64,000 nt of DNA, taken from the NCBI GenBank assembly GCA_026874595.1, contig CM049306.1, positions 65,106,019 through 65,170,018 on the forward strand, read 5' to 3'. This document shows, piece by piece, positions 14,620 through 46,222 of the stretch. A program made the translations under genes and the position numbers. The first letter of the stretch is position 1. Every line of letters starts with the position of its first letter. The stretch comes from Sipunculus nudus (taxonomy: Eukaryota > Annelida > Sipuncula > Golfingiida > Sipunculidae). The notes under the pieces are model-generated. The model had not been told where the DNA came from, searched no databases, and was given only the letters and a program-made list of their open reading frames with translations.

Positions 14620-14668
<49 letters not shown>

Positions 14669-14689: not shown

Positions 14690-16498
14690 TACCCCCAACT
14701 GCAAACCGGATATCCGTCCCTGATTTGACACACCCAACTGGCAAATCTGGGATCCGTCCCTGGTATAATAGCTGTGATAGTGTTTGCCATGAACACAATC
14801 ACTGCATTTAGAAACATTTCAGGGGAGCCTCTTTGTTTCAAGGGATTACCCTTTAGAACAGGTTATTAAACTGTCAATGCATGGAAATCCTCAAAGAGCG
14901 TCCATAGAGGATGAAAAGATGCCACGACCAAAAACACAGGTGGAATCACTCCCAATTGTGCCACGTCTGGGACCATCGCACACCAATGGAACATTGCTCC
15001 ATGTCAAATGTAATGCCCCTGGCGACATTTACTGTCACACACTGCTGCCATTTACGATCAAGGGAATGGGATGTACTTTCATTATTTGAGAAAAAAGATG
15101 CAAGTTTTGATGAAACCTACAATATAATCACATAATGTGAAAGAGGGTGTCAAGCGCTATCAAATGCTGTAAACTATAGGTCTATAGGTTAAAAGTGACA
15201 GAATTATAGGCGTTTCTTTGTATGGTCCCATGTTCTCGTTTGACAATAAATGGTGTGAGATATGACGAGATATACACTTATGTCACTTAAAACTAGTCAA
15301 ATGATTCTTGAACGGTATAAAAAAAAGAAACTGTAGCATTTTAATGACCGCGATATAGACATTTGTTCAAAATCTCGAATATCCTCGTTTGGCGGGAGAT
15401 GATGCGAGATTTGGTGGAATTTGTGATTTTACCATGTTAAGCTTCCGAGATGCAACCAAATGCTGAAAACTACTCCTCTTTAGCATTAACCATGATCAAG
15501 TTATAAGTATTTCTGTGAAATCTCGTAATTTCTCGTTTGACGGTAAACTGAGAGATATTTGACAAGACTGGCAATTGATTTACTTAGAACAAAGGGAATG
15601 CTACTTCAGTCCAAAAACTGGACTTTTGTAGCATAAATATTAACAGAGATAGAAGCCAAAAACTCCATATTTTCAGAATGTCAAGTTTTACCCCAAAATT
15701 AGGTAACCATGGTAACAGAAGAAGAGAGCTACATGTGCGCAGGAATAAGCCAATGATCCTAGCTTTAGATAGGACTATAAATATTGTGACATGTTAAATA
15801 TTTTTTTTAGATATTGCAGAAAAAGGATATGTTACAGTGTTTCAGGTACCATGTCCCCTGGTGGCTATTTCCAAAAAATGAAAAAAAAAATGTCGAGATA
15901 TTTATAAATAACACAAGTTAAATATTTTTTTAGATATTGCAGAAAAAGGATATGTTACAGTGTTACTTTCAAAGCCATTGTTAAAAAATTGCGACCTCTA
16001 GGTCATATTATATGAAATCTCGGAAAATCTCGTTTGACGAGAAATGGTGCGAGATTTTACGAGACTTGCAATTGTATGATAAACACCTCATTAAATACTA
16101 CCTATTGAAAAAAAACAGACCTCTGTAGCTTTAAAAATCACAAAATTAGAAAAAAAAATCAAATTTCATGATTTTTTCCCCAAAAATTAGCAACAGACTT
16201 ATATAACAGAATATTTACAACAGACTGGGACAGTTAGGTCACTGGAGGAAAGGCTGAGGGATGACAAGCAAAATGAACTGCAGTTTATGTGGCTACGATA
16301 AATTTTGACGAAGATATGAAGGAAAAACGGTTTTAATGTTTTTTTGGTGACCTTGACCTTGGACCGATCATGGCCCAAAACAATAGGCTTGGAGAGGTAC
16401 CGATTTTACACTTTTCCTGTAAGTTTCAGATCAATTGCTGCAAAACTGCGACCTGTAGAGTGCGGACAAACAGACCGACAAACAAACACACAAACAAA

Positions 16499-16530
16499 CT
16501 AGACGACCAGAGGTCGAGCGCTTGCCGGAA
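16499..16530 (-). other. Family E 3' terminus, minus strand
   Basis: The plus strand reads CTAGA, then CGACC aga GGTCG (16504-16516), then GCTTGCCGGAA (16520-16530). On the minus strand this is inverse sub-terminal repeat, hairpin, TCTAGTT. It abuts an ACAAAC microsatellite. Confidence 0.75.
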
Positions 16531-16779
16531 GTTGAAATGACAGACAGACGGACAGACAGAACATATTGTGGGTTTTCTATTATTTGAATGACCTTCAGCG
16601 TTTGCTGAGAAGTTGTGGCCTGTAAAATGACATATCAGACAAAGCAACGAGGAAGCAGACAAAGCTGACAACAAAAGACGAACAGACAGACTTACTGACA
16701 CATCTGTGATAACAGATTACAGACAAAAGCGCCGAAGGTGAAGAAGAGCAAAATTAGCGATAGTTTATGAAGGTAAGGT

Positions 16780-19030
16780 TTATAATTTTGGAGAGATAGC
16801 CAAAATATGATATGTTGGGGAGGTGAAAGTGCAGCGCCCCCTAGTGGCTATATCCGGAAAATGAAAAATCTGTTTTGAGATATTAGTGTAACACATAAGA
16901 TGTACCAGTTTTAAAAGGATTCCTGAAAAAAACTGTGGCCTTTAGAATGCTATATATGAGACGCAAGAACCAGCAAGTAGGCGGATTTTAGGACAACTGA
17001 CAAACAGACACACTGACAAAGTGACACAAGATTGAGACCAGATGACATTATCAGTTTATGGAGAAGACTCAGAGGAAAAAAATAAGCTATAGTTTATGTA
17101 ATTGAAGCTTTGGGTTTTAGAGATATGGCCAATGTAATGATATGTGTGTGAGGGTCGTTTACAGCGCCCCCTAGCAGTCATATTCAAAAAATGAAAAAAC
17201 AATTTCTAGATACTAGTGTAGGACTTATGATATGTCAGTTTCAAAAAGATTCCTGCAATAATGTGGCCTTTGGCGCAAGATGAATGAAATCTCGAAATAT
17301 CTCTATTTTTCCCCAGAAATTTGTAACCATGGTTACGGCAAATTTGAGTAAGCTATACACCAGATGACAGGCCTTGGAATGACGATTAAAATGAGCTATT
17401 GTTGAAGTAGATACGACTAATAGTCACAAAGATATGAAGAAAAAACCCTTTTCAGAAGTTTTGACGACCTTGACCTTGACCTTTGACCTATTTTAACCAA
17501 AAACAATAGGGCACCTAGAAATTATATTTTCGAACATACCTGTAAGTTTCAAGGTTATTGTGGCAAAATTGTGGCCAGGAGAGTGGTGACAAACAAACAA
17601 ACTAGACGACCATAGGTCGAACGCTTGCCGGAATTCGGAAGTGAAACACAGACGGACAGACAGAACATATTGTCGGTTTTCTATTAATGGAATGACTCTC
17701 AGGGACATTGCTGAGAATATGTGGCCCGTAGAATGACATATGAGACAAAAGAACAGGCAAGCAGACAAAGCTGACAACAAAAGACAAACATACAGACATA
17801 CTGACTTTGTGAGACAAGATTGACACCAGATGACATAAGCTAGTTATTGAGAAGATTCAAAGGAAGAAAATGAGTTATAATTTATGTAATTTAGATTTAT
17901 AGTTTACGAGGTATGGCGAATTAATGATATACTTGGGAGGCTCGACTGTATCGCCTCTAGCAGACATATTCCGAAGACGACAAATGCGTTTCGTATTATT
18001 AGTGTATGACATGAGATGTCTCAGTTTCAAAAGGATTCCGTCAAAGTTGTGGCCTGTAGAATGCTATATGTAAGGCGTAAGAACCAGCAAGCAGGTGACT
18101 TTGAGGATAACGGACAAACAGATGGACACACTGACAAAGTGACAGAAGATTGAAACCAGATGCCTTAATCAGGTTATGGAGAAGACTCAAAGGAAGAAAA
18201 TAAGCTATAGCTTATGTAACTGAGGCTTTGGGTGTAGAGATATGGCCAATACAATGGTATGTGTGTGAGAGTCATGTGCAGCGCCCACTAGTGGCCATAT
18301 CCGGAAAATGAAAAATTTATTTCTAGATATTAGTGTAAGACATAAGATGTAATAGTTTCAAAAGGATTCCGTCAAAACTGTGGCCTACAGAATGCTATAT
18401 GTGAGACGCAAGAGCCAACAAGCAGACGATTTTGAGGACAACTGACAAACAGACGAAAACACTGACAAAGTGACTCAAAATTGAGTCCAGATGACTTCTC
18501 CAGGTTATGGAGAAGACTCAAAGGAAGAAAAAAGCTAGAGTTTATGTAACTGAGGCTTATAGTTTTGGAGATATTGCCAAAGCATGATATGTTGGGAGAG
18601 GTTCGAGTTCAGCGCCCCCTAGCGGCCATATCCGGAAAATGAAAAATTGGTTTCGAGATATTAGTGTAAGACTTAAGATGTAATAGTTTCAAAAGGATTC
18701 TTTCAAAACTGTGGCCTGTAGAATGCTATTTGTGAGACGCAAGAGCAAGCAGGCGAATTTGGGGACAACTGACAAACAGACAGACACACTGACAAAGTGT
18801 CACAAAATTGTGACCAGATGACTACACTAGGTTATGGAGAAGACTCAGAGGAAGAAAATAAGCTATAGTTTATGTAATTGAGGCTTATAATTTTGGAGAT
18901 ATGGCCAAAATATGATATGTTCGGGAGGTTCGCATCCAGCGCCCCCTAGCGGCCCTATTCAAAAAGTAAAAAAACGATTTCGAGATACTAGTGTAGGACT
19001 TATAATATGTCAGTTTCAAAAAGATTCCTG
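16780..19030. repeat. ~330-bp tandem repeat block with GCGCCCCCTAG motif
   Basis: The GCGCCCCCTAG-type motif recurs at about 16832, 17161, (17951), 18279, 18610 and 18937, with adjacent spacings of 327-331 bp. Each unit also has 'ttttggagatatggcc', 'aaaaggattc', 'gtggcctgtagaatgctat', 'gacaaagtgac' and 'gaagactcaaaggaag'. Later related blocks lie at 30545-33320, 37230-38000 and 38030-40800. Confidence 0.85.
17602..17633 (-). other. Family E 3' terminus, minus strand
   Basis: CTAGA, hairpin CGACC ata GGTCG and GCTTGCCGGAA on the plus strand, abutting ACAAACAAA. Near-identical to the terminus at 36933-36964, consistent with the longer duplication around both. Confidence 0.75.
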
Positions 19031-19500
19031 CAATAATGTGGCCTTTGGCGCAAGATGAATGAAATCTCGAAATATCTCTATTCATGAGATATTTTACGAG
19101 ATACTGCAAGACTTGTAATAAAATCTTGTAGTACTAGTTGAATGCTACCTGAAGCAAAAAATTAGATCACTCTAGCTTTAAAACTGAAAAACTTATAAAA
19201 ATAAGACCCCTTTTTTCAAATATTATGACTTCCCCCAAAACTTGTAACCATGGTTACGGCAAATTTGAGTCAGCTACACACCAGATGACAGGCCTTGGAA
19301 TGACGATTAAAATGAGCTATTGTTGAAGTAGATACGGCTAATAGTCACAAAGATATGAAGAAAAAACGGTTTTGGGAAGATTTGACGACCTTGACCTTGA
19401 CCTTTGACCTATTTTAACCAAAAACAATAGGGCACCTAGAAATTATGTTTTCGAACATCCCTGTAAGTTTCAAGGATATTGTGGCAAAATTGTGGCCAGG

Positions 19501-19600
19501 AGAGTGGTGACAAACAAACAAACAGACAGACAAACAGACAAACAGACATACACAACTGACCAATATGCTTGCCGAAATCTTTGATTCCGGCAAGCAACAA

Positions 19601-19631
<31 letters not shown>

Positions 19632-19770
19632 TACGCAACTGCCCAATATGCTTGCCGAAATCTTTGATTCCGGCAAGCAACAAACAAACAGACAAAGAGA
19701 CATACAGACATACGCAACTGACGAACATGCTTGCGGAAATCGAAGATTTCCGGCAAGCAATAAAGTTGTG
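19501..19770 (-). repeat. Cluster of three family E 5' hairpins in a CAGA microsatellite
   Basis: GCTTGCCG...CCGGCAAGC hairpins lie at 19567-19595, 19650-19678 and 19729-19758, separated by ACAG/ACAAAC tracts. Each is the presumed 5' end of a minus-strand family E element. The roughly 80-bp period suggests successive insertion into, or slippage of, the element's own 5' microsatellite. Confidence 0.75.
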
Positions 19771-20608
19771 ACTTTGCCTCCAACATGTATGATAATAGAC
19801 GGGGCCCGGAGAGGCCGTCACGCACCGCTGCACACGCCGGCCGCCCACCAAAAATTTGGTAACCATGGTAACGGCAGCACAAAGCTACATGTGCGGAGGA
19901 ATAAGCCAATGTTCCTAGTTTCAGATACGACCAAAAAAATGGTGTCACGTTTAATATTTTTTGAGATATTGCAGAAAAATGATATATTACAGTGTTTCAT
20001 GTACCACGCCCCCTGGTGGGTATTTCCAAAAAATGAAAAACTGATTTCGAGATATTTATAAATAACACAAAATATATCAATTTCAAAGCCATTGTTAAAA
20101 AAATGCAACCTGTAGGTCATATTTAATAAAATCTCGAAGACTCTCGTTTGACGAGAAATGGTGCGAGATTTGGCGAGACTTTCAGTTTTATCATGTCAAG
20201 CTGCCTATAAGGTACATAATGACCAAAACCAGACGTCTGTAGCTTAAAAATTGACAAAGGTACAAAAAATGGTCGTGTTATTTCCAATTTCCATGATTTT
20301 TGCCCAAAAAATGTAACCATGGTGACGGCAAATTTAAGTAAGCTACATGTCAAAAGAAAGGCCACGTGATGACGAAAAAAATGAGAAAATGAGCTATTGC
20401 AGAAGTGGATAAGCCTATTTATGGCGAAGTTATAGTGCAAAAACCGTTAACCATACCTGTCGTGACCTTGACCCTTGACCTTGGAGCAATGTTGACCAAA
20501 AACAATAGGGCACCTAGAAATCGGTTTGTCAATCAAGCCTGTAAGTTTCAAATTGATTGATGCAAAAGTGTGACCTGGAGAGTCGTGACAAACAAACAGA
20601 CAAAGAGA

Positions 20609-20640
20609 CTAGACGACCAGAGGTCGAACACTTGCCGGAA
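20609..20640 (-). other. Family E 3' terminus, minus strand
   Basis: CTAGA, hairpin CGACC aga GGTCG and the slightly altered ACTTGCCGGAA, next to ACAGACAAAGAGA. Confidence 0.7.
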
Positions 20641-20939
20641 GCGGAAATAAGAAAGTCAGACTAGGAGAAACATTCAGCAGGCAGGCAGTTTACATTTGGA
20701 ACTAGTCAAATGAAGTACCCGAATAATGGCGTAAACAGAAGCACAATTTTGTGTGGTTATGCTGATTTTTTTAAAAGTCGCAAAAGAGTAGACAGACAAA
20801 CAGACAGACAGACGGGAAAAAAAACTCCATGTGAAGGCCATGTACTCCTGTCATGGAGAATGGAAAACAGTCTATTAGAATAAAACTCCATATTTTGAAT
20901 TTCAAGAATAAGAAGAATTTAATTGTAACGTATATTAGG

Positions 20940-22350
20940 TCACCATGGTAATGGAAGAATATGACAGAGTCCCCACGAGAGTAATCGTATTAAATCTAGC
21001 TTCAGATGCTGCAATCAATGTTGTGACACCGTCTATAGTTTTGGAGATATGGCACAATAATGATTGCTGCAGCGCCATCTGGGGGCTATTTTCTAAACGG
21101 AAAAAAATAAGTTTCCAGATATTTTATTTTAATATATATATTTGATGTATAATTAAAACTTTACTCCTGCCCCCAACTGCTAATCCAGGGATCAGCCCAT
21201 ATTTTGACACACCCAACTACAAAATCGGGGATCCGTCCCTGGTTTCAAAGATTTGCAAGTGGTTCCTGGCAACACAAGTGGCCGCACAAGGGGACACAAT
21301 AAAAATCACAGGTGTGTTCCCTCCACATTTAGCGGCTTTTGTCCTCTATTCAATGCTGCTTTGTGAGATTCATGCATGACCGCTCACGCCAACATGCAAC
21401 TGTAATAGCCTTGCCGGCACTTACCGGTCAACCCTGAAGCCACTTGTGCTCACGGCAATTGGATGTATTTTCATCATTTGATGAAAAACGAGGCAAGATT
21501 TGACGAGAATTGCAATAAAATCACATGATGTGACTGAGAGTGTCAGACGCTGTCAAATGCTGAAAACTATAAGTCTGTAGGGTGTAAAATGACAGCATAA
21601 TAGGCATTTGTTTAAATGGCCCACTGTTCTCGTTTGACGACAAATGGTGCGAGATATAACGAGATATTCACTTATATCACTTAACACTAATCAAATGATT
21701 GTTGAACAGTAGAAAAATGAAATCTCTAGCATAAAATTGAAAGAGATATAGACATTTGTTGAAAATTTTGTTCAAAATATCGAATATTCTCGTTTGGCGG
21801 GAGATGATGCGAGATTTGGCGAGATATGCAGTTTTATCATGTTAAGCTTCCGAAAGGCTAACAGAGGCTGAAACCGTATACTCTTTAACCTAAAACGTGA
21901 TCGAGTTATCAGCATTTCTGCGAAATCTCGTAATTTCTCGTTTGACGGAAAAACAGATCGAGATTCTACGAGACTTCTAATTGACTGGATTAGAGCCAAA
22001 GTAATGCTACCTCATGCAGAAAACTAGACCCTTGTAGTATAAATATCAACAGAGATAGAAGCAAAAAACTAATTATTTTCAGATTGTCAAGTTTTACCCC
22101 AAAATTTAGTTACCATGGTAACAGCAGCACAAAGCTACATGTACGCAGGAATAAGCCAATGATCCTAGTTTCAGATAAGACAATAAACATTGTGTCACGT
22201 TTAATATTTTTTGAGATATTGCAGAAAAAGATATGTTACAGTGTTTCAGGTACCACGCCCCCTAGTGGCTATTTCCAAAAAATGAAAAATTGATTTCGAG
22301 ATTTATAAATAACACAAAATATGTCATTTTCAAGGCCATAGTTAAAAAAA
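20940..22350. repeat. Segment duplicated at 35080-36450
   Basis: Long direct duplication in the same orientation. It includes the 'gcagcgccatctgggggctatt' module, the 'ggggatccgtccctggtttcaaag' module and the 'ctcgtttggcgg' modules. Differences are sparse substitutions, so it is younger than most of the array. The matching short ORFs (21772-21999 and 35856-36083, minus) reflect this duplication, not a conserved gene. Confidence 0.8.
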
Positions 22351-22866
22351 ATGGCGACCGACCTCAAGGTCATATTTAATGAAATCTCGAAAAATCTCGT
22401 TCGACGAGAAATGGCACGAGATTCTACGAGACTTGGTACTTTATGATGAACACCTGATTGAAAACTTCCTGATGCAAAAAAACAGACGTCTCTAGCTCTA
22501 AAAATGGAAAAATTAGAAAAAAAATCAAATTTTGTGACGTTTTCCCCCAAAATACGTTACCATGGTAATCATTGATCGGGACAATTTGCTGGCATATGAA
22601 AAGGCAACAAAATGAGGAATAAAATGAGCTAAAGATTAAGCCGCTACGATAATTATTGACACAGATATGAAGGAAAAACCGTTTTAAGGTTTTTCAGTGA
22701 CCCTGACCTTGACCTTGAACCGACCATGGCCAAAAACAATAGGCTCCGAGAAGAACCGATTATACACTCTATCTATAAGTTTCAGGACGATAGATGCAAA
22801 ATTGTGGCCTGTAGAGCGGGGACATACAGACAGACAGACAAACAAACATACGCAGGTGATCAACAT

Positions 22867-22950
22867 GCTTGCCGAATCTTTGATTCCGGCAAGCAACAAA
22901 CATACGCGGGTGATCAACATGCTTGCGAAAATCGAAGATTTCCGGCAAGC
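22867..22950 (-). repeat. Two family E 5' hairpins in tandem
   Basis: GCTTGCCG...CCGGCAAGC at 22867-22894 and GCTTGCGA...TTCCGGCAAGC at 22921-22950, each preceded by 'tacgc(a/g)ggtgatcaacat'. They directly precede a family E 3' terminus at 22953. Confidence 0.7.
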
Positions 22951-22952
22951 AA

Positions 22953-22984
22953 CAAGATGACCAGAGGTCACGCGCTTGCCGGAA
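22953..22984 (-). other. Family E 3' terminus, degenerate CTAG
   Basis: Hairpin TGACC aga GGTCA plus GCTTGCCGGAA, but the usual CTAGA is ACAAGA. It sits immediately against a 5' hairpin, so two element ends touch. Confidence 0.6.
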
Positions 22985-23930
22985 ATGGAAATAATACAGA
23001 CAGATAGACAGAGAGTGCATGTTGAAACAGCCATATGAATGAGCAACATTGTGGGGGCAGCAGAAACGAATAATATGTTTATGTATGCATGCTGACCTTG
23101 AATAGCTGCATACCTTTCTAGTGTAAAAGGGACCAAGTTCAAACATTTCCATGAAATCCCGTTAATCTCGTTTGACAAGAAGCAGTGAGAAGTTTTCAGA
23201 ATTGTCATGTCAAGCTGACCAAATGTTATGAAATGCCGAAACTAGACCTGTCTAGCTGTAAAAGTCGCCGAGTTATTAGCATTTCTGTGAAATCTCGTTT
23301 TTAGCTCAGCTGACTATAAGTCATCTGAGCTATAGTCATGGTCCATTGTCCGTCGTCCGTCTGTCTGTCTGTCCGTCCGTCCGTCCGTAGATGTGGCACG
23401 TTTTGAAACCGTAAGACCTAGGAATCCAAAATTCAGCATAATGTTAGATGTCCCCAAGATCTCCTACCAAGCCGAAAACTGGGTCTTTGCGACTTCGTTC
23501 CTTTGAGAAATTAAGGAAAAACCTCAATTTTTTATTAAAATTCTATTTTCACACTTCAGGACTGCCTCATTTCAAAACCACTCATCTGTTTTTCCTCATA
23601 TTTACCATAAATATTCCTCTATATAGTTCCTATGTACATGCCAGAAATTAAGTCTGTAAAGTATAAATTCTTTAAGTTGTGGGCCCAAACATATTGGACT
23701 TTGTAATAATCAGGAAAAATAATAACTCACTTAACATGAAAAATTTTTAAACTAGAGTCTATTTTTTCAAGTATATTACTATGTTTAATTAAGATTCAAT
23801 TGTTTACCCAAAATTAGATCTGAATTTTGTAAATTTTTTAAGTTATTAGCATAAAAAAAATCAGTACCTTAAATTTTGCCCAACTTTGACCATGGCACGT
23901 TTTTTTCCTGTAAGCATATTTGATTTAATT

Positions 23931-25868
23931 GTATCGCCAGACATAGTCTGGAGATACTATGGTTTAGGCACGGTCGCGCGGCCGCCGCCGCCACCGCCGC
24001 CGCCGCAGAGATTTCTTTTGGACACAATATCTCAAAAAATATTTCACGGATCTTTACCAAACTTGGTATATGTATAGATATGGGTGAGAGGACTACGCCT
24101 ATTTAAAATGAGGTCATGACCTCAACTAGGAGAGTGACCTTGACCTTGAATAGGTTCAATTTTGGGGAAAATCACACAAATTCTTAAATATCTCAAGAAA
24201 ACTTGCATGGATTGATCCCAAAATCAAGTTGATCGAAGATCATGGATAGGGTTGTCATGTTCCAGAAACTGGTGGCGCCACCTATTATTCTTTACTTGTT
24301 TTCATGCCGTTTAATATCCCCAAAATTGCTACTTGACAGTACTGTGAGCATTATAAGTCAAAAACTAATGGACAGATTTCTTTGATATTATGCAAATACA
24401 TAGATATGGGTTATGGGATGATGTTTATTTAAATTGGGGTCATGACCTTTCCTATGAGAGTGGCCTTGACCTTGAATATTGCCATATATGGTGAAAATCA
24501 CACAAAATCATTAATTTCTCAATAAGGGATGCACGCATTGGTCCAAAAATCAACTTGACCGAAGATCTTGGATAGTAATGTCATGTTCCAGAAACAGGTG
24601 GCGCCACCTGTTATTCTTTTACTTGTTTTCGTGCCGTTTAATACCCCATCATTGCCACTTAACAGTACATTTATAACCTGTGAGCATTATAAGTCAAAAA
24701 CTAATGGACAGATTTCTTTCATATTATGCATATACATAGACATGGGTTATGGGATGATGTATATATAAATTGGGGTCATGACCTTTCCTATGAGAGTGGC
24801 CTTGACCTTGAATATTGCCATATATGGTGAAAATTACACAAAATCATTAATATCTCAATAAGGGATGCTTGCATTGGTCCAAAAATCAACATGTTCGAAG
24901 ATCTTGGAAATTATTGTCATGTACCGGAAACAGGTGGCGCCACCTGTTATTCTTTTACTTGTTTTGTGCCGTTTAATACCCCATCATTGCCATTTATCAG
25001 TACTGTGAGCATTATAAGTCAAAAACTAATGGACAAATTTCTTTCATATTATGCATATACATGGATATGGGTTATAGGATAATGTTTATTTGAATAGGGG
25101 TCATGACCTTTCCAATGAGTGGCCTTGACCTTGAATATTGCCATATATGGTGAAAATCACACAAAATCATTAATTTCTCAATAAGGGATGGATTGATTGG
25201 TCCAAAAATCAACTTGAACGAAGATCTTGGATAGTGTTGTCATGTACGGGAAACAGGTGGTGCCACCTGTTATTCTTTTACTTGTTTTCGTGCCGTTTAA
25301 TACCCCATCATTGCCACTTAACAGTACATTTATAACCTGTGAGCATTATAAGTCAAAAACTAATGGACAGATTTCTTTCATATTATGCATATACATGGGT
25401 TATGGGATAATGTATATATAAATTGGGGTCATGACCTTTCCTATTAGAGTGGCCTTGACCTTGAATATTGCCATATATGGTGAAAATTACACAAAATCAT
25501 TAATATCTCAATAAGGGTTGCATGCATTGGTCCAAAAATCAACATGTTCCAAGATCTTGGAAACTATTGTCATGTACCGGAAACAGGTGGCGCCACCTGT
25601 TATTCTTTTACTTGTTTTGTGCCGTTTAATACCCCATCATTGCCATATATCAGTACTGTGAGCATTATAAGTCAAAAACTAATGGACAGATTTCTTGCAT
25701 ATACATAGACATGGGTTAGGGGATGATGTATATTGAAATTTGGATCATGACCTTTTCTATGAGAATGACCTTTTCTATGAGTGTGGTCTGATATTAATTG
25801 TTGCTGAAGATGGGGGGCCTTAATTGTCTGGCGATACTATGGCACCTGCGGTGCCAAGAAATATCTAG
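23931..25868 (+). mobile_element. Family C Helentron-like element (inferred)
   Basis: The 5' end GTATCGCCAGACA (23931-23943), part of hairpin CCAGAC ata GTCTGG, has an exact inverse TGTCTGGCGATAC at 25825-25837. The 3' hairpin is GGCACC tgc GGTGCC (25841-25855), followed by AAGAAATATCTAG and TT. A GCC/GCCGCC tract follows near 23980-24005. The family B host around 6960 reads GATTTAATTTTCACAGCATG without the insertion, again placing it between T residues. Its core is a tandem repeat. No ORF is supported. Confidence 0.8.
24090..25800 (+). repeat. ~330-bp tandem repeat, five units, dimeric order
   Basis: GGTGGCGCCACCT (one copy GGTGGTGCCACCT) occurs at 24271, 24597, 24933, 25256 and 25586, spacings 323-336 bp. 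Units 2 and 4 resemble each other, as do units 3 and 5 ('aacatgttc'), giving a dimer period of about 655 bp. It forms the core of the family C element and is not related at the motif level to the ~330-bp GCGCCCCCTAG repeat. Confidence 0.85.
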
Positions 25869-33834: not shown

Positions 33835-33879
33835 ATGGCCGGTAATAAGACAGCGAAACAGACAGACAGTTACTAGGCA

Positions 33880-35240
33880 GACAGACAGGGAACGTATAAC
33901 ACTGTCTATAGTTTTGGAGATATGGCACAATGATGATTGCTGCAGCGCCATCTGGCGGCTATTTCTAAAAGGGCAAAAAATGTTTCGAGACATTTTATTT
34001 TTTTATTATATATATTTGATGTATAATTAAAATTTAACCCCCGCAGAATACGACAGAGTCCCCACGAGGTTAAAGGCATTAAATCTAGTTCCGGAAATGG
34101 CTGGAAATAAGACAGCAAAACAGACGGACAGTTACTAGTCAGGCAGACAGGGAACGTTTGGATTTGATCAAATGAACAACCGCTTTCATGGTTAAAATGG
34201 AAGTACATTTTTATGTGATTTCGCTGATTTTCAATAGCCACAAATGAGTAGACAGACAGACGGAAAATAACTCCATGTGTAGGCAATGTACTCCTGTCAT
34301 GGAGAATGGAAAGCATGAATAAAATAAGCGTCAGTCAATTAGAATAAATCTTCATATTTTGAATTTCAGGAAAAAGAAGAATTTAATTGTAACCTATATT
34401 AGGCCCCCATGGTAACGGAAGAATATGACAGAGTCTTCACGAGGATAAACCCATTAAATCTAGTTTCAGATGCTGCAATCAATGTTGTGACACTATCTCT
34501 AGTTTTATAGATATGGCAAAAAAATGATTGCTGCAGTGCCATCTGGCGGCTATTATTAAAAGGACAAAAAGTAAGTTTCGAGATATTTTATTTTTTTTAA
34601 TAAATATTTGATGTATGATTAAATTTAAACTTCTGCTGAATATGACAATGTCCCCACGAGGAAAACGCATTAAATCTAGGTTCAGAAGCTGCAATCAATG
34701 TTGTGACACCGTCTATAGTTTTGGAGATATGGCACAATAATGATTACTGCAGCGCCATCTGAAAGGAAAAAAAATAGTTTCGAGATATTTTATTTTTAAT
34801 TATATATATTTTATGTATAATCAAACTTTAACCCCCGCGGAATACGACAGTCCCCACGAGGTTAAACGCTTTAAATCTAGTTTCAGAAGCTGCAATCAAT
34901 GTTGTGATACTGTCTATAGTTTTGGAGATATGGCACAATAATGATTGCTGCAGCGCCATCTGAAAGGGAAAAAAATAGTTTCGCGATATTTTAATTTTTA
35001 TTATATATATTTTATGTATAATTAAAATTTAACCCCCACAGAATACGACAGAGTCCCAACGAGGTTAAACGCATTAAATATAGTTTCAGAAGCTGCAATC
35101 AATGTTGTGACACTGTCTATAGTTTTGGAGATATGGCACAATAATGATTGCTGCAGCGCCATCTGGGGGCTATTTTCTAAAAAGAAAAAAATAAATTTCC
35201 AGATATTTTATTTTAATATATATATTTGATGTATAATTAA
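33880..35240. repeat. Tandem units with 'gcagcgccatct' module
   Basis: The phrases 'gtctatagttttggagatatggcac' and 'tgattgctgcagcgccatct' recur near 33905, 34495, 34710, 34915 and 35115. The later units are about 205 bp apart and share 'gaatacgacagagtcccc'. This is a short local expansion leading into the segment duplicated from 20940-22350. Confidence 0.75.
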
Positions 35241-36450
35241 AATTTTACTCCTGCCCCCAACTGCTTAACCAGGGATCAGCCCATATTTTGACACCCCCAA
35301 CTACAAAATCGGGGATCCGTCCCTGGTTTCAAAGATTTGCCAGTGGTTCCTGGCAACACAAGTGGCCGCACAAGGGGACACAATAAAAATCACAGGTGTG
35401 TTCCCTCCACATTTAGCGGCTTTTGTCCTCTATTCAATGCTGCTTTGTGAGGTTCATGGACGACCGCGCACGCCAACATGCAACTGTAATAGCCTTGCCG
35501 GCACTTACCGGTCAACCCTGAAGCCACTTGTGCTCACGGCAGTTGGATGTATTTTCATCATTTGATGAAAAACGAGGCAAGATTTGACGAGAATTGCAAT
35601 AAAATCACATGATGTGAATGAGAGTGTCAGACGCTGTCAAATGCTAAAAACTATATGTCTGTAGGGTATAAAATGACAGCATAATAGGCATTTGTATAAA
35701 TGGTCCACTGTTCTCGTTTGACGACAAATGGTGCGAGATATAACGAGATATTCATTTATATCACTTAACACTAATCAAATGATTGTTGAACAGTAGAAAA
35801 ATAAAATCTCTAGCATAAAATTGAAAGAGATAAAGACATTTGTTGAATATTTTGTTCAAAATATCGAATATTCTCGTTTGGCGGTAGATGATGCGAGATT
35901 TGGCGAGATTTGCAGTTTTATCATGTTAAGCTTCCGAAAGGCTACCAGAGGCTGAAACCGTATACTCTTTAACCTAAAACGTGATCGAGTTATCAGCATT
36001 TCTGCGAAATCTCGTAATTTCTCGTTTGACGGAAAAACAGATCGAGATTCTACGAGACTTCCAATTGACTGGATTGGAGCCAAAGGAATGCTACCTCATG
36101 CAGAAAACTAGACCCTTGAAGTATAAATATCAACAGAGATAGAAGCAAAAAACTAATTATTTTCAGATTGTCAAGTTTTACCCCAAAATTTGGTTACCAT
36201 GGTAACGGCAGCACAAAGCTACATGTACCCAGGAATAAGCCAATGATCCTAGTCTTAGATGCGACAAAAGAAATTGTTATATGCTTCATATTTTTTAAGA
36301 TGTTGTGCAAAAATGATAAGTTGTAGTGTTACCAGTACCACGCCCCCTGGTGGCTTTTTAAAAAAAATGAAAAAACAATTTCGAGATATTTATAAATAAC
36401 ACAAAATACATTAATTTCAAAGCCATTGTTAATAAAATGCAACCTGCAGG
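35080..36450. repeat. Segment duplicated from 20940-22350
   Basis: Direct copy of the left-array segment with sparse differences. It contains a perfect GTTACCATGGTAAC palindrome at 36193-36206, matching the one at 22109-22122. Confidence 0.8.
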
Positions 36451-36889
36451 TCATATTTAATGAAATCTCGAAAACTCTCGTTTGACGAGAAATAGTGCGA
36501 GGTTTTGCGGGATTAACAATTCTATCATAAACAGCTCATGAAATACTACCTGATGCAGAAAACTAGAACTCTCTAGCTTTAAAAATGAAAAATTTAGAAA
36601 GAAAATATCGAATTCTATCATTTCTTCCCAAAAATACGTTACTATGGTAACGAATGATCAGAGATATTTGCTAGCATGTGGAAAGGTAACATGATGAGGA
36701 ATAAAATGAGCTAAAGATTAAGCCGCTACGATTATTTTTTACAAAGATATGAAGGAAAATCCGTTTTAAGGTTTTTCAGGGACCCTGACCTTGACCTTGA
36801 ACCGTTCAAGGCCAAAAACAATAGGCACCCAGGGTTTTCGATTTTACACTTTTTCTATAAGTTTCAGGGCGATTGCTTCAGAATTGTGG

Positions 36890-37980
36890 CCTGTAGAGCA
36901 CCGACAAACAAACAGACAGACAGACAAACAAACTAGACGACCATAGGTCGAACGCTTGCCGGAAATCGGAAGTGAAACTTAGACGGACAGACAGAACATA
37001 TTGTCGGTTTTCTATTAATGGAATGACTCTCAGGGACATTGCTGAGAATATCTGGGCCGTAGAATGACATATGAGACAAAAGAACAGGCAAGCAGACAAA
37101 GCTGACAACAAAAGACGAACAGACAGACATACTGACTTTGTGAGACAAGATTGACACCAGATGACATAACCTAGTTATTTAGAAGATTCAAAGGAAGAAA
37201 ATGAGTTAAAGTTTATGTAATTTAGATTTATAGTTTTGGAGGTATGGCGAATTAATGATATACTTGGGAGGCTCGACTGTAGCGCCCTCTAGCAGACATA
37301 TTCCAAAGACGACAAATGGGTTTCGTATTATTAGTGTATGACATGAGATGTCCCAGTTTCAAAAGGATTCCGTCAAAGCTGTGGCCTGTAGAATGCTAGA
37401 TGTAAGGTGTAAGAACCAGCAAGCAGGCGACATTGAGGATAACGGACAAACAGATGGACACACTGACAAAGTGCAAAAGATTGAAACCAGATGCCTTAAT
37501 CAGGTTATTAAGAAGACTCAAAGGTAGAAAATAAGCTATAGTTTATGTAACTGAGGCTTTGGGTGTAGAGATATGGCCAATACAATGGTATGTATGTGAG
37601 GGTCGTGTGCAGCGCCCACCAGTGGCCACATCAGGAAAATGAAAAATTCATTTCTAGATATTAGTGTAAGATATAAGATGTAATAGTTTCAAAAGGATTC
37701 CGTCAAAACTGTGGCATATAGAATGCTATATGTGATATGCAAGAGCCAACAAGCAGGCGAATTTTAGGACAACTGACAAACAGACGAAAACACTGACAAA
37801 GTAACTCAAGATTGAGTCCAGATAACTTCTCCAGGTTATGGAGAAGACTCAAAGGAAGGAAAAAGCTACAGTTTATGTAACTGAGGTTTATAGTTTTGGA
37901 GATATTGCCAAAGCATGATATGTTGGGAGAGGTCCGAGTTCAGCACCCCCTAGCGGCCATATCCGGAAAATGAATTTTTC
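36890..37980. repeat. Segment duplicated from 17560-18640
   Basis: Both copies start at the CGACCATAGGTCG terminus and continue through 'gacagacagaacatattgtcgg' and three ~330-bp units in the same order. The right copy is diverged mainly by substitutions and ends abruptly near 37975. Confidence 0.8.
36933..36964 (-). other. Family E 3' terminus, minus strand
   Basis: CTAGA, CGACC ata GGTCG and GCTTGCCGGAA, next to CAGACAGACAAACAAA. Confidence 0.75.
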
Positions 37981-38029
37981 ATCATCCCTGTAAGTTTCAA
38001 AGTTATTGTGGCAAAATTGTGGCCAGCAG

Positions 38030-40800
38030 AGTGATGACAAACAAACAAACAGACAAACAGACAAGACCTCGGCGCCGTCTAGCGGTCATATTGAAGCAAA
38101 CAAAACAATGCTCTAAATAATAATGGAAGACATATTTTATATCAGTTTCAAAAGAATGTATGTAAAACTGTGGCTTGTTGGTTGATACATGTAAGATAGA
38201 AGCACCAGGGAGCAAGCGAAAATGAGATCAGCGAAAAAAGACATACACTGACAAAGTGATAACGGATATGACCAGATGACTTGATCAATTTATGTCAAAG
38301 ACTAAGACGAAGAAGATTAGCTATAATGGGTGTAATTAAGACTAATATTTTTAGAGATATGGCCGAAATATGACGTAAGTGTGGGTAGACTGCAGCTCTC
38401 CCAAGCGGCCACAGCCAGAAAAATAAAAAAAAGTGTCTAGATATTAGTGCAGAAGGAAAACTGTACGTGTCTCGAAAGTATTCATGCAAAATTGGGGAAT
38501 TGGGGCTTGTAGACAGCTAACGTAAGATGCACACACCGAAAAGCTGGTAAAAATTAGCTCAGTGGAAAAAGAGATAGACATACTGCCAACGCATGACACA
38601 AGATGGAGACCAGATATGAACCAACCAGATTATAATGAAGATTCATGGCAAGATAATAAGCTATAACTGATGTAATAAAGATCAATAGTTTTGAAGATAT
38701 CACCAACAGTATGAAACGTCATATTAAGAAGATTGTAGCGCCCCCTAACGGCATTGGTAAGAAATTGAAAAAAATGGATTTATAGATTTGATTACAAGAG
38801 GTAAGATGTACCAGTATCAAAGGATTCATGCTAAACTGTGGTTTGTGAATTCATATATGTAAGATGCAAGCACTGGCCAGCTAGTAAAACTGGGCACATC
38901 GGACAAAGACACGGACATACACACAAAGTGACACATATGAGACAAACGCTGTCAAACAAAAGTTGTGTATGAAACCAAGAGAAAAAAGTTAGTGAAGATG
39001 CGACTAAAATTGACAAAGTCATGGCCGAAAACATGATAAGTCAGATTGAATCCACTGCAGCGCCACCTAGTGACTACAGCCACAGCATGAAAATTGAGTT
39101 TCTAGATATGAGTACAATACAATGGATGTTTCAGTTTGAAAAGGATTCGTGGAAAACTGTGGCTTGCAGATTACAATTTGAATGATTGAAGCACTGGCAA
39201 ACAAGCAAAACCGAGGACAGCGGACAAAGGCACGGACATACTGATTCGTGAAGATCTCTGGCTTGCAGATAACAATATGTAAGATGCAAATACCGTCAAA
39301 CAAGCAAAAATGAGGACAGCGGACAAAGACACGGACATATTGACCAAGTTACATATCTGAGAGAAAAATGGTCCAAACAAAAGGTGTGGGGAGGACCAAG
39401 AGGAAGAAAATGAACCTAAGATTGTGACGATACGACCAAAACTGACAAAGTAATGAAGAAAATGAAATTTCAAGGTATTTCGATGACCTTGACCTTTGAC
39501 CTCTATTGACCAATAGCAATAGGGTTCTTGCATTTTTGATTGTCCACCAAATGTATAAGTTTGAAAGCGATTGAAGCAATATTGTGTCCTGTAGAGACTG
39601 GACAGACAAAAGAACAAACATACAGACAAGTTTATACATCAAATATTTTTGGAATTATCGCCAAGAGAAAAAGGATGAGCCTAAGTTTGTGAAGATACGA
39701 CTAAACTTGACAGAGTTCTGTCTGAAAACATGATACGTCAGCTTGGGTTGACTGCAGCGCCTCCTAGCGGGCACAGCCAGAAAATAAAAAACCCATTTCT
39801 CGATATTAGTGCAAGACATAATACGTACCAGTTTCAAATAGATTTGTGCAAAACTATGGCTTGTGCATTGCTATAGGTAACATGTTACACAAACGAGCGG
39901 GCGTGATTGTGGACAACTGGCAAACAGAGAGACATACTGAGACAATGACACGAGATTGTGACCAGATGATATCACTATTTGATGAGAAGACTCAGGGCAA
40001 GAAAATAAGCTCTAATTTATGTACATACTACTTATATTTTTGGAGATATGGTCAAAAGACGATATGCTAGGGTGGGTTGACTGCTGCGCCCCCTAGCGGC
40101 CATATTCACAAAATGAAAAACAAATTTCTAGATATTAGTACAAGACAGAAGATGTACCAGTTTCAAAAGGATTCGTGCAAAAATGTGGCCTGTACATTGC
40201 TATATGTAAGATACAAGCACCGGCAAGCAAGCGAAACTGAAGACACCGGACAAACAGACGGCCATACTGACAAAGTGACAAATGATTCAGGCCAGATGAC
40301 CCATCGATAACATCCAGAAGACTCAAGGCAAGAATATAAGCTATAATATATGTAATTACGACTAACATTTTTGGAGATATGGCCGAAAGACGACATGTTC
40401 GAGCGGGGTTGACTGCAGCGCCCCCTAGCGGCCACAGCCAGAAAATGAAATACCTGTTTCTAGATATTAGTCTCAGAAATAAGATGTACTAGTTTCAAAA
40501 AGATTCGTTAAAAACTATGGCTTGTACTTTGCTATATGTAACATGTTACACCAACCAGCGGGCGTGGTTGTGGACAGCAGACAAACAGACAGACACACTG
40601 ACAAAGTGACACAAGATTGAGACCAGATGACCCAACCAGAATATAGGGAAGACTCAGGACAAGAAAATAAGCTATAATTTATGTAAGTAAGATCAATTGT
40701 TTTGGAGATATGGTCAAAACAAGATATGTCACTGTGTATTCGCTGCAGCGCCCCCTGGCGGTCAAATTCAAAAAATGGAAAAATAATTTCGAGATATTGC
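38030..40800. repeat. Diverged ~330-bp repeat block
   Basis: Degenerate units with 'gatatggcc', 'gcgcc(c/a)cctag' and 'gacaaagtgaca'. The GCGCC motif lies at about 38070, 38730, 39058, 39755, 40085, 40418 and 40746, with spacings of 328-333 bp in the last four. It is older than the blocks to its left. Confidence 0.75.
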
Positions 40801-41366
40801 TGTTGGATATAAAATATATCAGTTTCATAACAAATACTTCAAATTTGTGGCATCTAGGGTATCATTAATGATATCACGAAATATCTCGTATGGCGAGATT
40901 TCATGCTAGAATTGGCGAGACTTGGATCGTCGAGAACTCTTGACGGGCTACATTATGCAAAAAACCAGACCTCTCTAGCTATAAAACTGACAAAGTTACA
41001 AAAATTAGGCCTTTTATTTTCGAAAACCATGAGTTTTCCCCAAAAATGTGTAACCATAGAAACAGCAGATTTCAGCAACATATATATATCAGAAGAAAGG
41101 CCTTGGAATGCCGATTAAAATGAGCCATGTTTGAAGTGGCTATGACAAATAGTAATGGAGATATGAAGAAAAGAGCACTTTAGGAACTTTTGATGACCTT
41201 GACCTTGACCTTTGACCTATATTGCCCAAAAACAATAGGCTTCTTGCATTTTTGATTTTACACAAACTGTGAAAGTTTGAAAGCGATGGGATCAAAATTG
41301 GGACCTGTAGAGACTGGACAGACAAACAAACAAACAGACAAACAGACATCCGCGACTGACCAACCA

Positions 41367-41447
41367 GCTTGCGAAAATCGAAGATTTCCGGCAAGAAACA
41401 AACGGAACTGATCAACATACTTGTCGAAATCTCTGATTCCGGCAAGC
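41367..41447 (-). repeat. Two family E 5' hairpins
   Basis: GCTTGCGA...TTCCGGCAAG at 41367-41395 and CTTGTCG...CCGGCAAGC ending at 41447. The second is the start of the 1274-bp tandem unit. Confidence 0.7.
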
Positions 41448-44400
41448 AATAAACTATAACGCGACAGAAATGGCAAACCGGCCCGCAAAGAGTGCCTGTG
41501 GCCACTTATTTTATACGGCGAACGCTATAATTTTTGCAGTCACGTGAAAGCGTGTCTGTCTTTCATACTAAAACGCGTGCATGCATGCGTGATGGCATAT
41601 GTATTTGTGCATGCGGGTTTTAATTTTTACAAAGTTGCTAAAATTGGCGGGGACCATGTATGATTAAACAAAAGAGGTCATGGGCAGAAAGGCCATGAAA
41701 GGCCAATTCATATGGTGTACAGTTTATGTACCTAAAATGTGTAGTTGTGGAGATATGGTTAAACAATGATAGTAGGTACGGGGTTGCAGTGCAGCGCCCC
41801 CTAGCGGTAATTTTCCAAAAACTGAACAATTGCTCTCGAGATATTAGTGTATGACGTAACATGTATCAGTTTCAAAAGGATGCCTGCATATCTGTGGCCT
41901 ATAGGGCATGTCACCGTGAAATCGCGAAATCTCATTCGACGAGAAACGGTGCGAGATTTTGCAAGATTTTTGGTTGGATCACCGAGAACTCACAAGGGCT
42001 ACAAGATGCAAAAATTTCGACCTCTCTAGCATAAAAACTGACAGAGTTAGAAGCTGAAAACTGCATATTTTCAAAATTCAAAGGTTTTACCCCAAAAATA
42101 GAGAAATCTGGCAATAGCGCACTTTGGCACCTATGCGCAAAAATAAGCCCATGGACCCTAGTTTAAGGTGCTGTGATGGAAATGGCCCAATGTTTAATAG
42201 TTCTGGAGGTATAGCACCAAAACAAATTTTCATGTTTTTTCATCTGCAACGCCCCCTGGCGGCCATTTCCAAAATCTGAAAAACCCGTTTCGAGATATTC
42301 TTATGTTACATAAAATATCTCAGAATCAGTAAAATTGCTGCAAATTTGAAAAATATCACGAAATTCCATGATTTCTCCCCAAAATTGCGTAACCATGGTA
42401 ACAGCGAAATGAGGCAATTTGGCAGTGTTGGAAGTGGCCATGCAGTGGCAAATAAAACGGGCTACAGATTAGGTGCCTACGGCTATTTTTGACGCAGGTA
42501 TAAAGAAAAAACCGTTTTTGAGCTTTTTGGTGACCCTGACCTTGACCCTTGACCGATCATGACCAAAAACAACAGGCTCCGAGAAGAACCGATTATACAC
42601 TCTATCTATAAGTTTCAGGACGATTGGTGCAAAATTGTGGCCTGTAGAGCGGGGACATACAGACAAACAAACAAACGGAACTGATCAACATACTTGTCGA
42701 AATCTCTGATTCCAGCAAGCAATAAACTATAACGCGACAGAAATGGCAAACCGGCCCGCAAAGAGTGCCTGTGCTCACTTATTTTATACGGCGAACGCTA
42801 TAATTTTTGCAGTCACGGGAAAGCGTGTCTGTCTTTCATACTAAAACGCGTGCATGCATGCGTGATGGCATATGTATTTGTGCATGCGGGTTTTAATTTT
42901 TACAAAGTTGCTAAAATTTGTGGGGACCGTGTATGATTAAACAAAAGAGGTCATGGGCAGAAAGGCCATGAAACGCCAATTCATATGGTGTACAGTTTAT
43001 GTACCAAAAATGTGTAGTTTTGGAGATATGGTTAAACAATGATAGTAGGTACGGGGTTGCAGTGCAGCGCCCCCTAGCGGTAATTTTCCAAAAACTGAAC
43101 AATTGCTCTCGAGATATTAGTGTATGACGTAACATGTATCAGTTTCAAAAGGATGCCTGCATATCTGTGGCCTATAGGGCATGTCACCGTGAAATCGCGA
43201 AATCTCATTCGACGAGAAACGGTGCGAGATTTTGCAAGATTTTTGGTTGGATCACCGAGAACTCACCAAGGGCTACAAGATGCAAAAATTTCGACCTCTC
43301 TAGCATAAAAACTGACAGAGTTAGAAGCTGAAAACTGCATATTTTCAAAATTCAAAGGTTTTACCCCAAAAATAGAGAAATCTGGCAATAGCGCACTTTG
43401 GCACCTATGCGCAAAAATAAGCCCATGGACCCTAGTTTAAGGTGCTGTGATGGAAATGGCCCAATGTTTAATAGTTCTGGAGGTATAGCACCAAAACAAA
43501 TTTTCATGTTTTTTCATCTGCAACGCCCCCTGGCGGCCATTTCCAAAATCTGAAAAACCCGTTTCGAGATATTCTTATGTTACATAAAATATCTCAGAAT
43601 CAGTAAAATTGCTGCAAATTTGAAAAATATCACGAAATTCCATGATTTCTCCCCAAAATTGCGTAACCATGGTAACAGCGAAATGAGGCAATTTGGCAGT
43701 GTTGGAAGTGGCCATGCAGTGGCAAATAAAACGGGCTACAGATTAGGTGCCTACGGCTATTTTTGACGAAGGTATAAAGAAAAAACCGTTTTTGAGCTTT
43801 TTGGTGACCCTGACCTTGACCCTTGACCGATCATGACCAAAAACAATAGGCTCCGAGAAGAACCGATTATACACTCTATCTATAAGTTTCAGGACGATTG
43901 GTGCAAAATTGTGGCCTGTAGAGCGGGGACATACAGACAAACAAACAAACGGAACTGATCAACATACTTGTCGAAATCTCTGATTCCGGCAAGCAATAAA
44001 CTATAACGCGACAGAAATGGCAAACCGGCCCGCAAAGAGTGCCTGTGCTCACTTATTTTATACGGCGAACGCTATAATTTTTGCAGTCACGGGAAAGCGT
44101 GTCTGTCTTTCATACTAAAACGCGTGCATGCATGCGTGATGGCATATGTATTTGTGCATGCGGGTTTTAATTTTTACAAAATTGCTAAAATTTGTGGGGA
44201 CCGTGTATGATTAAACAAAAGAGGTCATGGGCAGAAAGGCCATGAAATGCCAATTCATATGGTGTACAGTTTATGTACCAAAAATGTGTAGTTTTGGAGA
44301 TATGGTTAAACAATGATAGTAGGTACGGGGTTGCAGTGCAGCGCCCCCTAGCGGTAATTTTCCAAAAACTGAACAATTGCTCTCGAGATATTAGTGTATG

Positions 44401-45221
44401 ACGTAACATGTATCAGTTTCAAAAGGATGCCTGCATATCTGTGGCCTATAGGGCATGTCACCGTGAAATCGCGAAATCTCATTCGACGAGAAACGGTGCG
44501 AGATTTTGCAAGATTTTTGGTTGGATCACCGAGAACTCACCAAGGGCTACAAGATGCAAAAATTTCGACCTCTCTAGCATAAAAACTGACAGAGTTAGAA
44601 GCTGAAAACTGCATATTTTCAAAATTCAAAGGTTTTACCCCAAAAATAGAGAAATCTGGCAATAGCGCACTTTGGCACCTATGCGCAAAAATAAGCCCAT
44701 GGACCCTAGTTTAAGGTGCTGTGATGGAAATGGCCCAATGTTTAATAGTTCTGGAGGTATAGCACCAAAACAAATTTTCATGTTTTTTCATCTGCAACGC
44801 CCCCTGGCGGCCATTTCCAAAATCTGAAAAACCCGTTTCGAGATATTCTTATGTTACATAAAATATCTCAGAATCAGTAAAATTGCTGCAAATTTGAAAA
44901 ATATCACGAAATTCCATGATTTCTCCCCAAAATTGCGTAACCATGGTAACAGCGAAATGAGGCAATTTGGCAGTGTTGGAAGTGGCCATGCAGTGGCAAA
45001 TAAAACGGGCTACAGATTAGGTGCCTACGGCTATTTTTGACGAAGGTATGAAGAAAAAACCGTTTTTGAGCTTTTTGGTGACCCTGACCTTGACCCTTGA
45101 CCGATCATGACCAAAAACAATAGGCTCCGAGAAGAACCGATTATACACTCTATCTATAAGTTTCAGGACGATTGGTGCAAAATTGTTGCCTGTAGAGCGG
45201 GGACATACAGACAAACAAACA
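41401..45221. repeat. 1274-bp tandem triplication
   Basis: The phrase 'aacggaactgatcaa' begins units at 41401, 42674 and 43948 and a fourth partial unit at 45222, spacings 1273, 1274 and 1274 bp. Units 2 and 3 appear almost identical; unit 1 differs by a few bases (for example gtggccacttatt versus gtgctcacttatt). Each unit has a 5' hairpin, two GCGCCCCCTAG/ACGCCCCCTGG motifs, one GTAACCATGGTAAC and a TGACCCTGACCTTGACC tract. The repeated short ORFs follow the unit and are not supported as genes. Confidence 0.95.
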
Positions 45222-45238
45222 AACGGAACTGATCAATA

Positions 45239-45410
45239 TACTTGTCGAAATCACTGATTCCGGCAAGCAACAAACAAACAAACAGACAAACAGACATCCG
45301 CGACTGACCAACCTGCTTGCAGAAATCGAAGATTTCCGGCAAGCAACAAACAGACAGACATCCGCGACTGACCAACCAGCTTGCGAAAATCGAAGATTTC
45401 CGGCAAGCAA
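45239..45410 (-). repeat. Three family E 5' hairpins
   Basis: CTTGTCG...CCGGCAAG near 45241-45269, then GCTTGCAG...CCGGCAAGC and GCTTGCGA...CCGGCAAGC near 45314-45345 and 45379-45409. They are separated by 'acagacatccgcgactgacc' and ACAAAC tracts. Confidence 0.7.
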
Positions 45411-45442
45411 CTAGACAACCTGAGGTTGAACGCTTGCCGGAA
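45411..45442 (-). other. Family E 3' terminus, minus strand
   Basis: CTAGA, CAACC tga GGTTG and GCTTGCCGGAA, directly abutting a 5' hairpin without intervening microsatellite. The hairpin stem changed on both arms (CAACC/GGTTG), so base pairing is kept. Confidence 0.75.
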
Positions 45443-45752
45443 GGCAAAATGTGGAAATGAAGAGGTTAAAGGGACATAGTATTTGAGGTGGAAATCATCC
45501 CATGTTCTTATGGAATACGAGAGGTTGCGGCAATATTTGCTGAGAATGATGACAAAAGAGAGATAGAGTTTATGTGATAGATTTAATATGACTGTGATCC
45601 TTTTGACAAATATATGAGGGAAACACCTTTGTTTTTCTAGGTGATTTCATAACCTTGACCTTTGATTTATTTAATTAATACACCTAGTGCTTCAAGAAAT
45701 CATTCTGATCTACAAAATGTTGAAGTTACAAAATGATTGCTGGTAAACTATG

Positions 45753-45955
45753 GCCTGTAGAATGCTATATGTAATTAAGACGCAAGAACTAGCAAGAGGG
45801 CAAACTTGAGGACAACTGACACACAGATATACTGACAAAGAGATATAAAGTGCCTGTAGAATGCTATATGTAATTAAGACACAAGAACTAGCAAGAGGGC
45901 AAACTTGAGGACAACTGACACACAAATATACTGACAAAGAGATATAAAGTGCAGG
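45753..45955. repeat. ~100-bp tandem duplication
   Basis: The stretch starting 'cctgtagaatgctatatg' at about 45753 is repeated at about 45853 with one or two substitutions. It is a local duplication in the last recognisable array module. Confidence 0.85.
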
Positions 45956-46220
45956 AAAGTTGACTAGACCAGGCTATGGAGAATTCCCAGGTAAAGAAAT
46001 TGAGCAAAAATTTGTGAAGATAGGATTAAGATTGCCGAAGTTATGACAAAAATATTTTCTTTTATGTTTTTAGTCCTTGACCTATATTTACAAAAACAAT
46101 AGGCTCCTCAAATGTATGAATTTTTAAAGCAATTCCTGCAAATTTGCGATCTTTAGAGTGGAGACAGGCTGACAGACAACCATCTAAACAGAGAGACAAA
46201 CAGAGATACGGAACTGACAT

Positions 46221-46222
<2 letters not shown>

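Follow-up and report, generated by a model that had tools for sequence, protein, structure and literature searches.

We analyzed a 64,000-nucleotide stretch of Sipunculus nudus DNA (assembly GCA_026874595.1, contig CM049306.1, forward-strand positions 65,106,019 to 65,170,018; hereafter, the window), in which a dozen or so copies, perhaps more, of one small transposable element, all sharing one orientation, form an array of about 31 kb between 14,690 and 46,200. On structural grounds, these elements are HINEs, the non-autonomous form of Helentrons, for which the available text of three sources lists a 5′ subterminal inverted repeat (subTIR), a complementary inverted repeat, a microsatellite, central repeats, a 3′ subTIR, a palindrome, and a T-rich target (PMC7492417, PMC4067079, PMC2374699). 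Read 5′ to 3′ on the minus strand, a unit opens with TTGCTTGCCGG..., followed by a hairpin with one of two loop types and a GTTGGTCAGTYGCG-like tail, which together we call the 5′ module or head. A TTTG/TCTG microsatellite, T-rich on the sense strand, then leads to the body start (CTCTACAGGCCACAATTTTG...), the body holds tandem repeats of 331, 336, 148, or 201 bp, and the unit closes with TTCCGGCAAG (the 3′ subTIR), a short hairpin, and TCTAG.

A sequence-only reading of this DNA had counted nine 3′ termini and at least ten 5′ hairpins, all facing the same way, and both observations held. The nine 3′ termini were all present at the plus-strand positions it had given and all belonged to the minus strand, with none on the plus strand, and a profile search detected 13 intact 5′ modules, every one of them also on the minus strand (E 8e-12 to 9e-16, values that are generous because the profiles were made from copies in the same window). 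No further match better than E 0.05 was found in a 3′-end profile search of the window, and neither 5′ modules nor 3′ ends had a significant match elsewhere in the window beyond about 15-46.3 kb. Near 46.23 kb lies a remnant 5′ module that has lost its hairpin and sits beside an (AT)18 tract. AT dinucleotide tracts occur near both ends of the array (14625-14684 and 46225-46260).

The subTIR CTTGC(C/T)GG was present in 13 of 13 intact 5′ modules, 2-3 nt from a presumed terminus TTG, of which module 41395 lacks the G. All nine 3′ ends carry a 3′ subTIR complementary to that of the 5′ module plus a palindrome, and eight terminate in TCTAG, with TCTTG at 22953. The 3′ subTIR starts about 32 nt from the end, compared with a slightly greater distance of 38-60 nt in mite HINEs. 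The base following the 3′ end is T in all nine cases, and TT follows in seven. When folded as single-stranded DNA, two 5′ hairpins formed well (z -3.4 and -5.9), and three 3′ hairpins were modestly better than shuffled sequences (z -1.2 to -1.75). Among the listed stop-to-stop frames of at least 130 amino acids, the longest in the array was 186 amino acids. A scan against Rfam gave no matches, and the 3′-end pattern had none in either the viral_contigs or the genome_contigs set. We defined strong body starts as the 15 profile matches above 90 bits. Matches at 32346 (78.5 bits), 30605 (87.0), 46158 (35.3), 45761 (57.6), and 38031 (45.0), like many central-repeat matches below this line, were judged by reading; those at 32346 and 30605 are the last repeat ahead of a 3′ end. 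From its upstream end, the array consists of the following parts.

45411..46235, minus strand: decayed element with remnant 5′ module beside (AT)18 and body start near 46158
45411-45442, minus strand: 3′ end of the decayed element, adjoining the next 5′ terminus
45363..45410, minus strand: 5′ module 45409 (subTIR and inverted repeat; E 1.1e-13), a head without body, outermost of block I
45299..45346, minus strand: 5′ module 45345 (profile search), a head without body, inside the microsatellite of 45409
45223..45270, minus strand: 5′ module 45269 (profile search), continuing into its own microsatellite and then body start 45197
41451..45271, minus strand: three tandem copies of a 1,274-bp unit (5′ module and truncated body), with further 5′ modules 43995 and 42721
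41402..41449, minus strand: 5′ module 41448, a head without body, broken at the start of its microsatellite by the element of 41395
36933..41395, minus strand: element with 5′ module 41395, body start 41312, 331-bp repeats, and 3′ end 36933-36964
33803..36932, minus strand: headless body with microsatellite, body start 36898, 201-bp repeats, and 3′ end 33803-33834
32077..33802, minus strand: headless body with body start 33776, 331-bp repeats, and 3′ end 32077-32108
30334..32076, minus strand: headless body with body start 32058, 331-bp repeats, and 3′ end 30334-30365
29227..30333, minus strand: truncated headless body without a matching head, body start 30303
22953..29137, minus strand: large element, read as single, with 5′ module 29136, body start 29040, and 148-bp and 336-bp repeats
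22953-22984, minus strand: 3′ end of the large element, adjoining the next 5′ terminus
22904..22952, minus strand: 5′ module 22951 (profile search), a head without body
20609..22896, minus strand: element inside the microsatellite of 22951, with 5′ module 22895, body start 22816, and 3′ end 20609-20640
19848..20608, minus strand: truncated headless body, body start 20582
19712..19760, minus strand: 5′ module 19759, a head without body, after the same 90-bp segment as 29136
19633..19680, minus strand: 5′ module 19679, a head without body, inside the microsatellite of 19759
17602..19597, minus strand: complete element with 5′ module 19596, microsatellite, body start 19504, 331-bp repeats, and 3′ end 17602-17633
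16499..17601, minus strand: headless body with body start 17583 and 3′ end 16499-16530
15000..16498, minus strand: headless body without 3′ end, body start 16460; homology to other bodies stops near 15000

The span from 29137 to 22953 reads as one large element, and much of its part from 28.2 to 23.0 kb consists of 148-bp and 336-bp arrays together with a repeat that is also found at 6.3 kb. This other dispersed repeat occurs in both orientations (6317-6964, 23300-23930, and 63379-63729), the first two copies containing a GTCC microsatellite.

The junctions between these parts follow a recurrent pattern. Directly behind their terminal TCTAG, seven of the nine 3′ ends run into a microsatellite and a family body start with no 5′ module, and this microsatellite opens with TTTG or TCTG at six of the seven junctions and with TCTC at one. 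The earlier observation that 3′ ends mostly abut the family microsatellite was therefore correct for this looser tract, but the exact letters GTTTGTTTGTCTG lay at or within 4 nt of only three of the nine 3′ ends (36933, 33803, and 30334). The remaining two (45411 and 22953) join the 5′ terminus TTGCTTGCCGG of another copy. On the 5′ side, 6 of the 13 modules come after the microsatellite of another 5′ module (45345, 45269, 41395, 22895, 19679, and 19596), 2 come after a 3′ end (45409 and 22951), and 5 come after a TTTAT sequence (43995, 42721, 41448, 29136, and 19759), the first three of these being tandem copies. The array thus contains six bodiless heads and, behind 3′ ends, seven headless bodies, all broken in the same microsatellite. 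When read as last in, first out, all six heads could be matched to six of the seven bodies.

These findings suggest that the cluster probably arose by nesting of HINE-type elements in the 5′ microsatellites of their own kind, which is the best explanation for most of the junctions. In the mechanism that we infer, Helentron rolling-circle machinery would join a copy into T-rich DNA, with the T-rich strand setting its orientation. Because each copy carries its own target just inside its 5′ end, new copies would land there in the orientation of the host, and each landing would divide the host copy, leaving a 5′ head on one side and a headless body on the other. A series of landings would pile up 5′ modules, behind which the bodies and 3′ ends would come in the opposite order, and since every landing brings a new target, the nest would feed itself. 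Later unequal exchange, conversion, and microsatellite-mediated joins would have reshuffled the nest and produced the 1,274-bp triplication. As a tentative generalization, the sense-strand microsatellite may act as a landing pad to which each same-orientation insertion adds another, so that nests grow autocatalytically and inwards. Although we would not count on it, such landing pads may in this way build arrays of one orientation with no need for concatemers or unequal exchange, a first step to satellite DNA.

Between 14,690 and 46,200, the elements' own 5′ microsatellites account for 118 of 4,101 minus-strand TT sites (2.9%) and for none of the 2,822 on the plus strand. Six of 10 inferred insertions lay within these microsatellites, an enrichment with p 1.1e-7 on a one-strand TT null, p 2.2e-7 for TTT sites, p 3.1e-4 for TTTG sites, and p 0.028 for TTTGT sites. 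In this count, the tandem copies 43995, 42721, and 41448 were one event, the decayed element at 45411..46235 was omitted, and the microsatellites ahead of body starts 39596 and 38031 were outside the microsatellite set; treating 29136 and 19759 as two events rather than one gave 6 of 11 (p 2.3e-7 on the one-strand TT null). The elements carry TTTGT-like DNA on the sense strand, and 17 of 17 (TYTG)4+ tracts in the window were on the minus strand, which would set the orientation of every insertion into such a tract.

Several results weigh against nesting, or at least against nesting as a simple history. The list of independent insertions was made post hoc, after the data had been seen, and the enrichment was weak on the one-strand null of TTTGT sites (p 0.03-0.07), so that a TTTGT-like preference explains most of it and special self recognition need not be assumed. 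Repeated insertion into own-kind microsatellites, as previously proposed, best accounts for the stacking of 5′ modules and for the exact joins of 3′ terminus, microsatellite, and body, but any preference of these insertions for self over TTTGT sites in general is weak. Body 30303 is left without a head, and the order of heads and bodies alone was matched by 429 of 1,716 random orders (0.25), making it uninformative. When heads were paired with bodies by subfamily, the order expected from nesting came 79th, 126th, and 121st among 720 permutations in three versions, without reaching significance, and a swapped pairing was better each time for the block at 19-16 kb. This test, which omitted 5′ modules 43995 and 42721 and bodies 46158, 43923, 42649, and 39596 and whose versions dropped in turn 30303, 32058, or 33776, has little power because even pairs that are directly linked, five in number, show a correlation of only r = 0.20. 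Inside the element at 36933..41395, 331-bp arrays contain body starts 39596 and (weaker) 38031, each with a microsatellite ahead but no 3′ end; microsatellite recombination therefore also yields headless bodies, and it may have exchanged bodies behind some 3′ ends. The 5′ junction of 41395 is out of phase with the other five.

Identity along copies also shifts stepwise, giving a mosaic. The body at 33800-32077 is 76-94% identical to that at 32076-30334 over the first 0.8 kb and 93-100% identical thereafter, and 22850-20609 compared with 36932-33803 is 76-89% identical for 0.7 kb and 95-99% for 1.1 kb before identity drops. Three blocks of 0.9-1.1 kb at distances of about 1.7, 14, and 19 kb are 93-99% identical. 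The array is thus reshuffled by recombination. Between 45,271 and 41,451, the three copies of the 1,274-bp unit, each starting at a 5′ terminus, differ from one another at 7, 13, and 19 positions (98.5-99.5% identity) and form the only tandem array of element size. A fourth 5′ module (41448) follows these units and is broken by the element at 36933..41395; body 36898, which nesting order allots to this module, is only about 71% like the body of the unit, which makes a single uninterrupted concatemer less likely and favors unequal exchange. The triplication is best read as unequal exchange between the 5′ modules of two elements. Modules 29136 and 19759 are 96% alike and the 90 bp upstream of each are 87% alike, and one may therefore derive from the other. 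This 90-bp GC-rich segment (19760-19849 and 29137-29226) stands directly ahead of the two modules, is joined to bodies at different points, and may be a captured flank travelling with the 5′ end.

A history of segmental tandem duplication, in which a single insertion into the microsatellite of a relative was followed by copying of the junction and the 5′ modules through unequal crossing-over, would account for the triplication and for the three highly similar blocks. We compared 120 bp ahead of and 240 bp of body after each of the seven microsatellite junctions (21 pairs; junctions 45411 and 22953 stood outside because they join a 5′ terminus), and none of the 21 pairs was at least 85% alike on both sides. 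Instead, the three pairs with at least 85% on the left differed on the right (36933/17602, 97 versus 65%; 32077/30334, 98 versus 75%; 17602/16499, 86 versus 63%), and pairs with at least 80% on the right differed on the left (33803/32077, 50 versus 83%, and 33803/17602, 62 versus 80%, left versus right). In two of these pairs, 36933/17602 and 32077/30334, the 93-98% identity of the last kilobase stops at the 3′ terminus, as transposition predicts, yet this identity falls short of the 5′ end. A possible exception is 36933/16499 (84% left, 75% right), which might be an old duplicate and as such counts with the points against nesting, and the discordance of the other pairs may also come from microsatellite recombination. 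Copying of headless units would not yield six bodiless heads either, and we regard duplication from one junction as an unlikely origin of the array.

An origin from rolling-circle concatemers is about as unlikely. In this model, which the available text of PMC12628747 attributes to Xiong et al., a circle that loses or reads through its 3′ terminator would insert, in one step, an array in which each 3′ end is accompanied by several 5′ ones. Concatemers would fit the stacked 5′ modules, the two exact head-to-tail joins of 3′ and 5′ ends (45411 and 22953), and the start of the 1,274-bp units at a 5′ terminus, but headless bodies placed immediately after exact 3′ termini are not expected from them, and seven such bodies exist; moreover, both hairpin types are mixed in each of the four 5′ stacks. 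Composite transposition, by which two nested elements, with both of their 5′ ends, travelled as a unit and 5′ stacks were imported instead of being built on site, seems to us the least probable of these histories. The available part of PMC5148889 describes this model for Helitrons of Fusarium, in which short duplications of the 5′ end occur; in our array, however, we saw no 5′ stack repeated elsewhere among the 13 modules, and bodies possibly belonging to the heads are present downstream.

Nesting in own-kind microsatellites has partial parallels in known systems, which we describe as far as the accessible portions of the cited articles reach. Cg_HINE of Crassostrea gigas shares the subTIRs, inverted repeat, microsatellite, central tandem repeats, and palindrome and uses a T-rich target without target site duplication (Vojvoda Zeljko et al. 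2020, PMC7492417), but it is dispersed in both orientations, and those portions describe no self-nested oriented array like the one-directional array found here. HINE/DINE-1 elements and Helentrons share subTIRs, an inverted repeat, a GTCY-type microsatellite (the TTTG/TCTG tracts that follow our 5′ modules), central repeats, a 3′ stem loop, and probably a TT target (Thomas et al. 2014, PMC4067079; Yang and Barbash 2008, PMC2374699). Directly adjoining Helitrons are noted in the same two articles, where tandem arrays are ascribed in the text at hand to a bypassed termination signal and not to insertion into an own microsatellite. Fusarium FoHeli elements share self-insertion and several 5′ termini but are of Helitron2 type, and the consulted part of that work shows neither a microsatellite target nor a nest this deep; a fungal Helitron triple copy is explained there by repeated 5′-end insertion or by rolling circle (PMC5148889). 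Plant centromeric Helitron arrays resemble ours in having many 5′ ends, with single 3′ ends (Xiong et al. 2016, in the review PMC12628747), whereas here headless bodies lie behind exact 3′ ends. The excerpted review also covers transposable element dimers formed through insertion-site preference, as we propose here (McGurk and Barbash), and shuffled Helitron loci in oyster, complex loci that appear in PMC11136912 as well.

Helitron self-insertion is therefore already published, and the new finding here is an oriented nest in the element's own microsatellite; a HINE repeatedly nested in its own 5′ microsatellite was not found in the literature searched, which covered subscription papers little. 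Lepidopteran helitron-like elements reportedly disrupt (GAAA)n microsatellites, to go by the title of a 2010 study by Coates et al., and would share with our elements the insertion into microsatellites, that title naming no microsatellite of the element's own.

The origin of arrays from dispersed rolling-circle elements is usually explained by concatemers or unequal crossing-over. A readable nest with matchable heads, bodies, and exact ends adds another route that can be tested, in which the element brings its own target site. If true, this route would explain one-directional nests and could, speculatively, be one reason why HINE/DINE families retain their 5′ microsatellite. The suggestion of a satellite-like array was premature, and we rejected satellite DNA as a description: adjacent 3′ ends are irregularly spaced at about 1.1 to 8.5 kb, and in place of a long, near-uniform array the sole element-sized tandem block is the triplicated 1,274-bp unit.

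Outside the array, the plus-strand frame 5191-5841 encodes a RING finger at its C-terminal end (Pfam zf-C3HC4_3, E 2.9e-11) that matched solved RING domains such as Mdm2 with E 6e-7 and weaker. The frame could well be an exon belonging to an animal gene, presumably a neuralized-like one. A 362-amino-acid open frame on the plus strand (53293-54381) contains repeated RKRQSELR... motifs and a Cys-rich CCCCHRLMFR...WICRTCHF stretch; it had no match above cut-off in Pfam and NCBIfam, and we take it to resemble the N-terminal part of Helitron/Helentron proteins. Directly after this frame, a 187-bp tandem repeat spans 54428-56010 with 8.5 copies.

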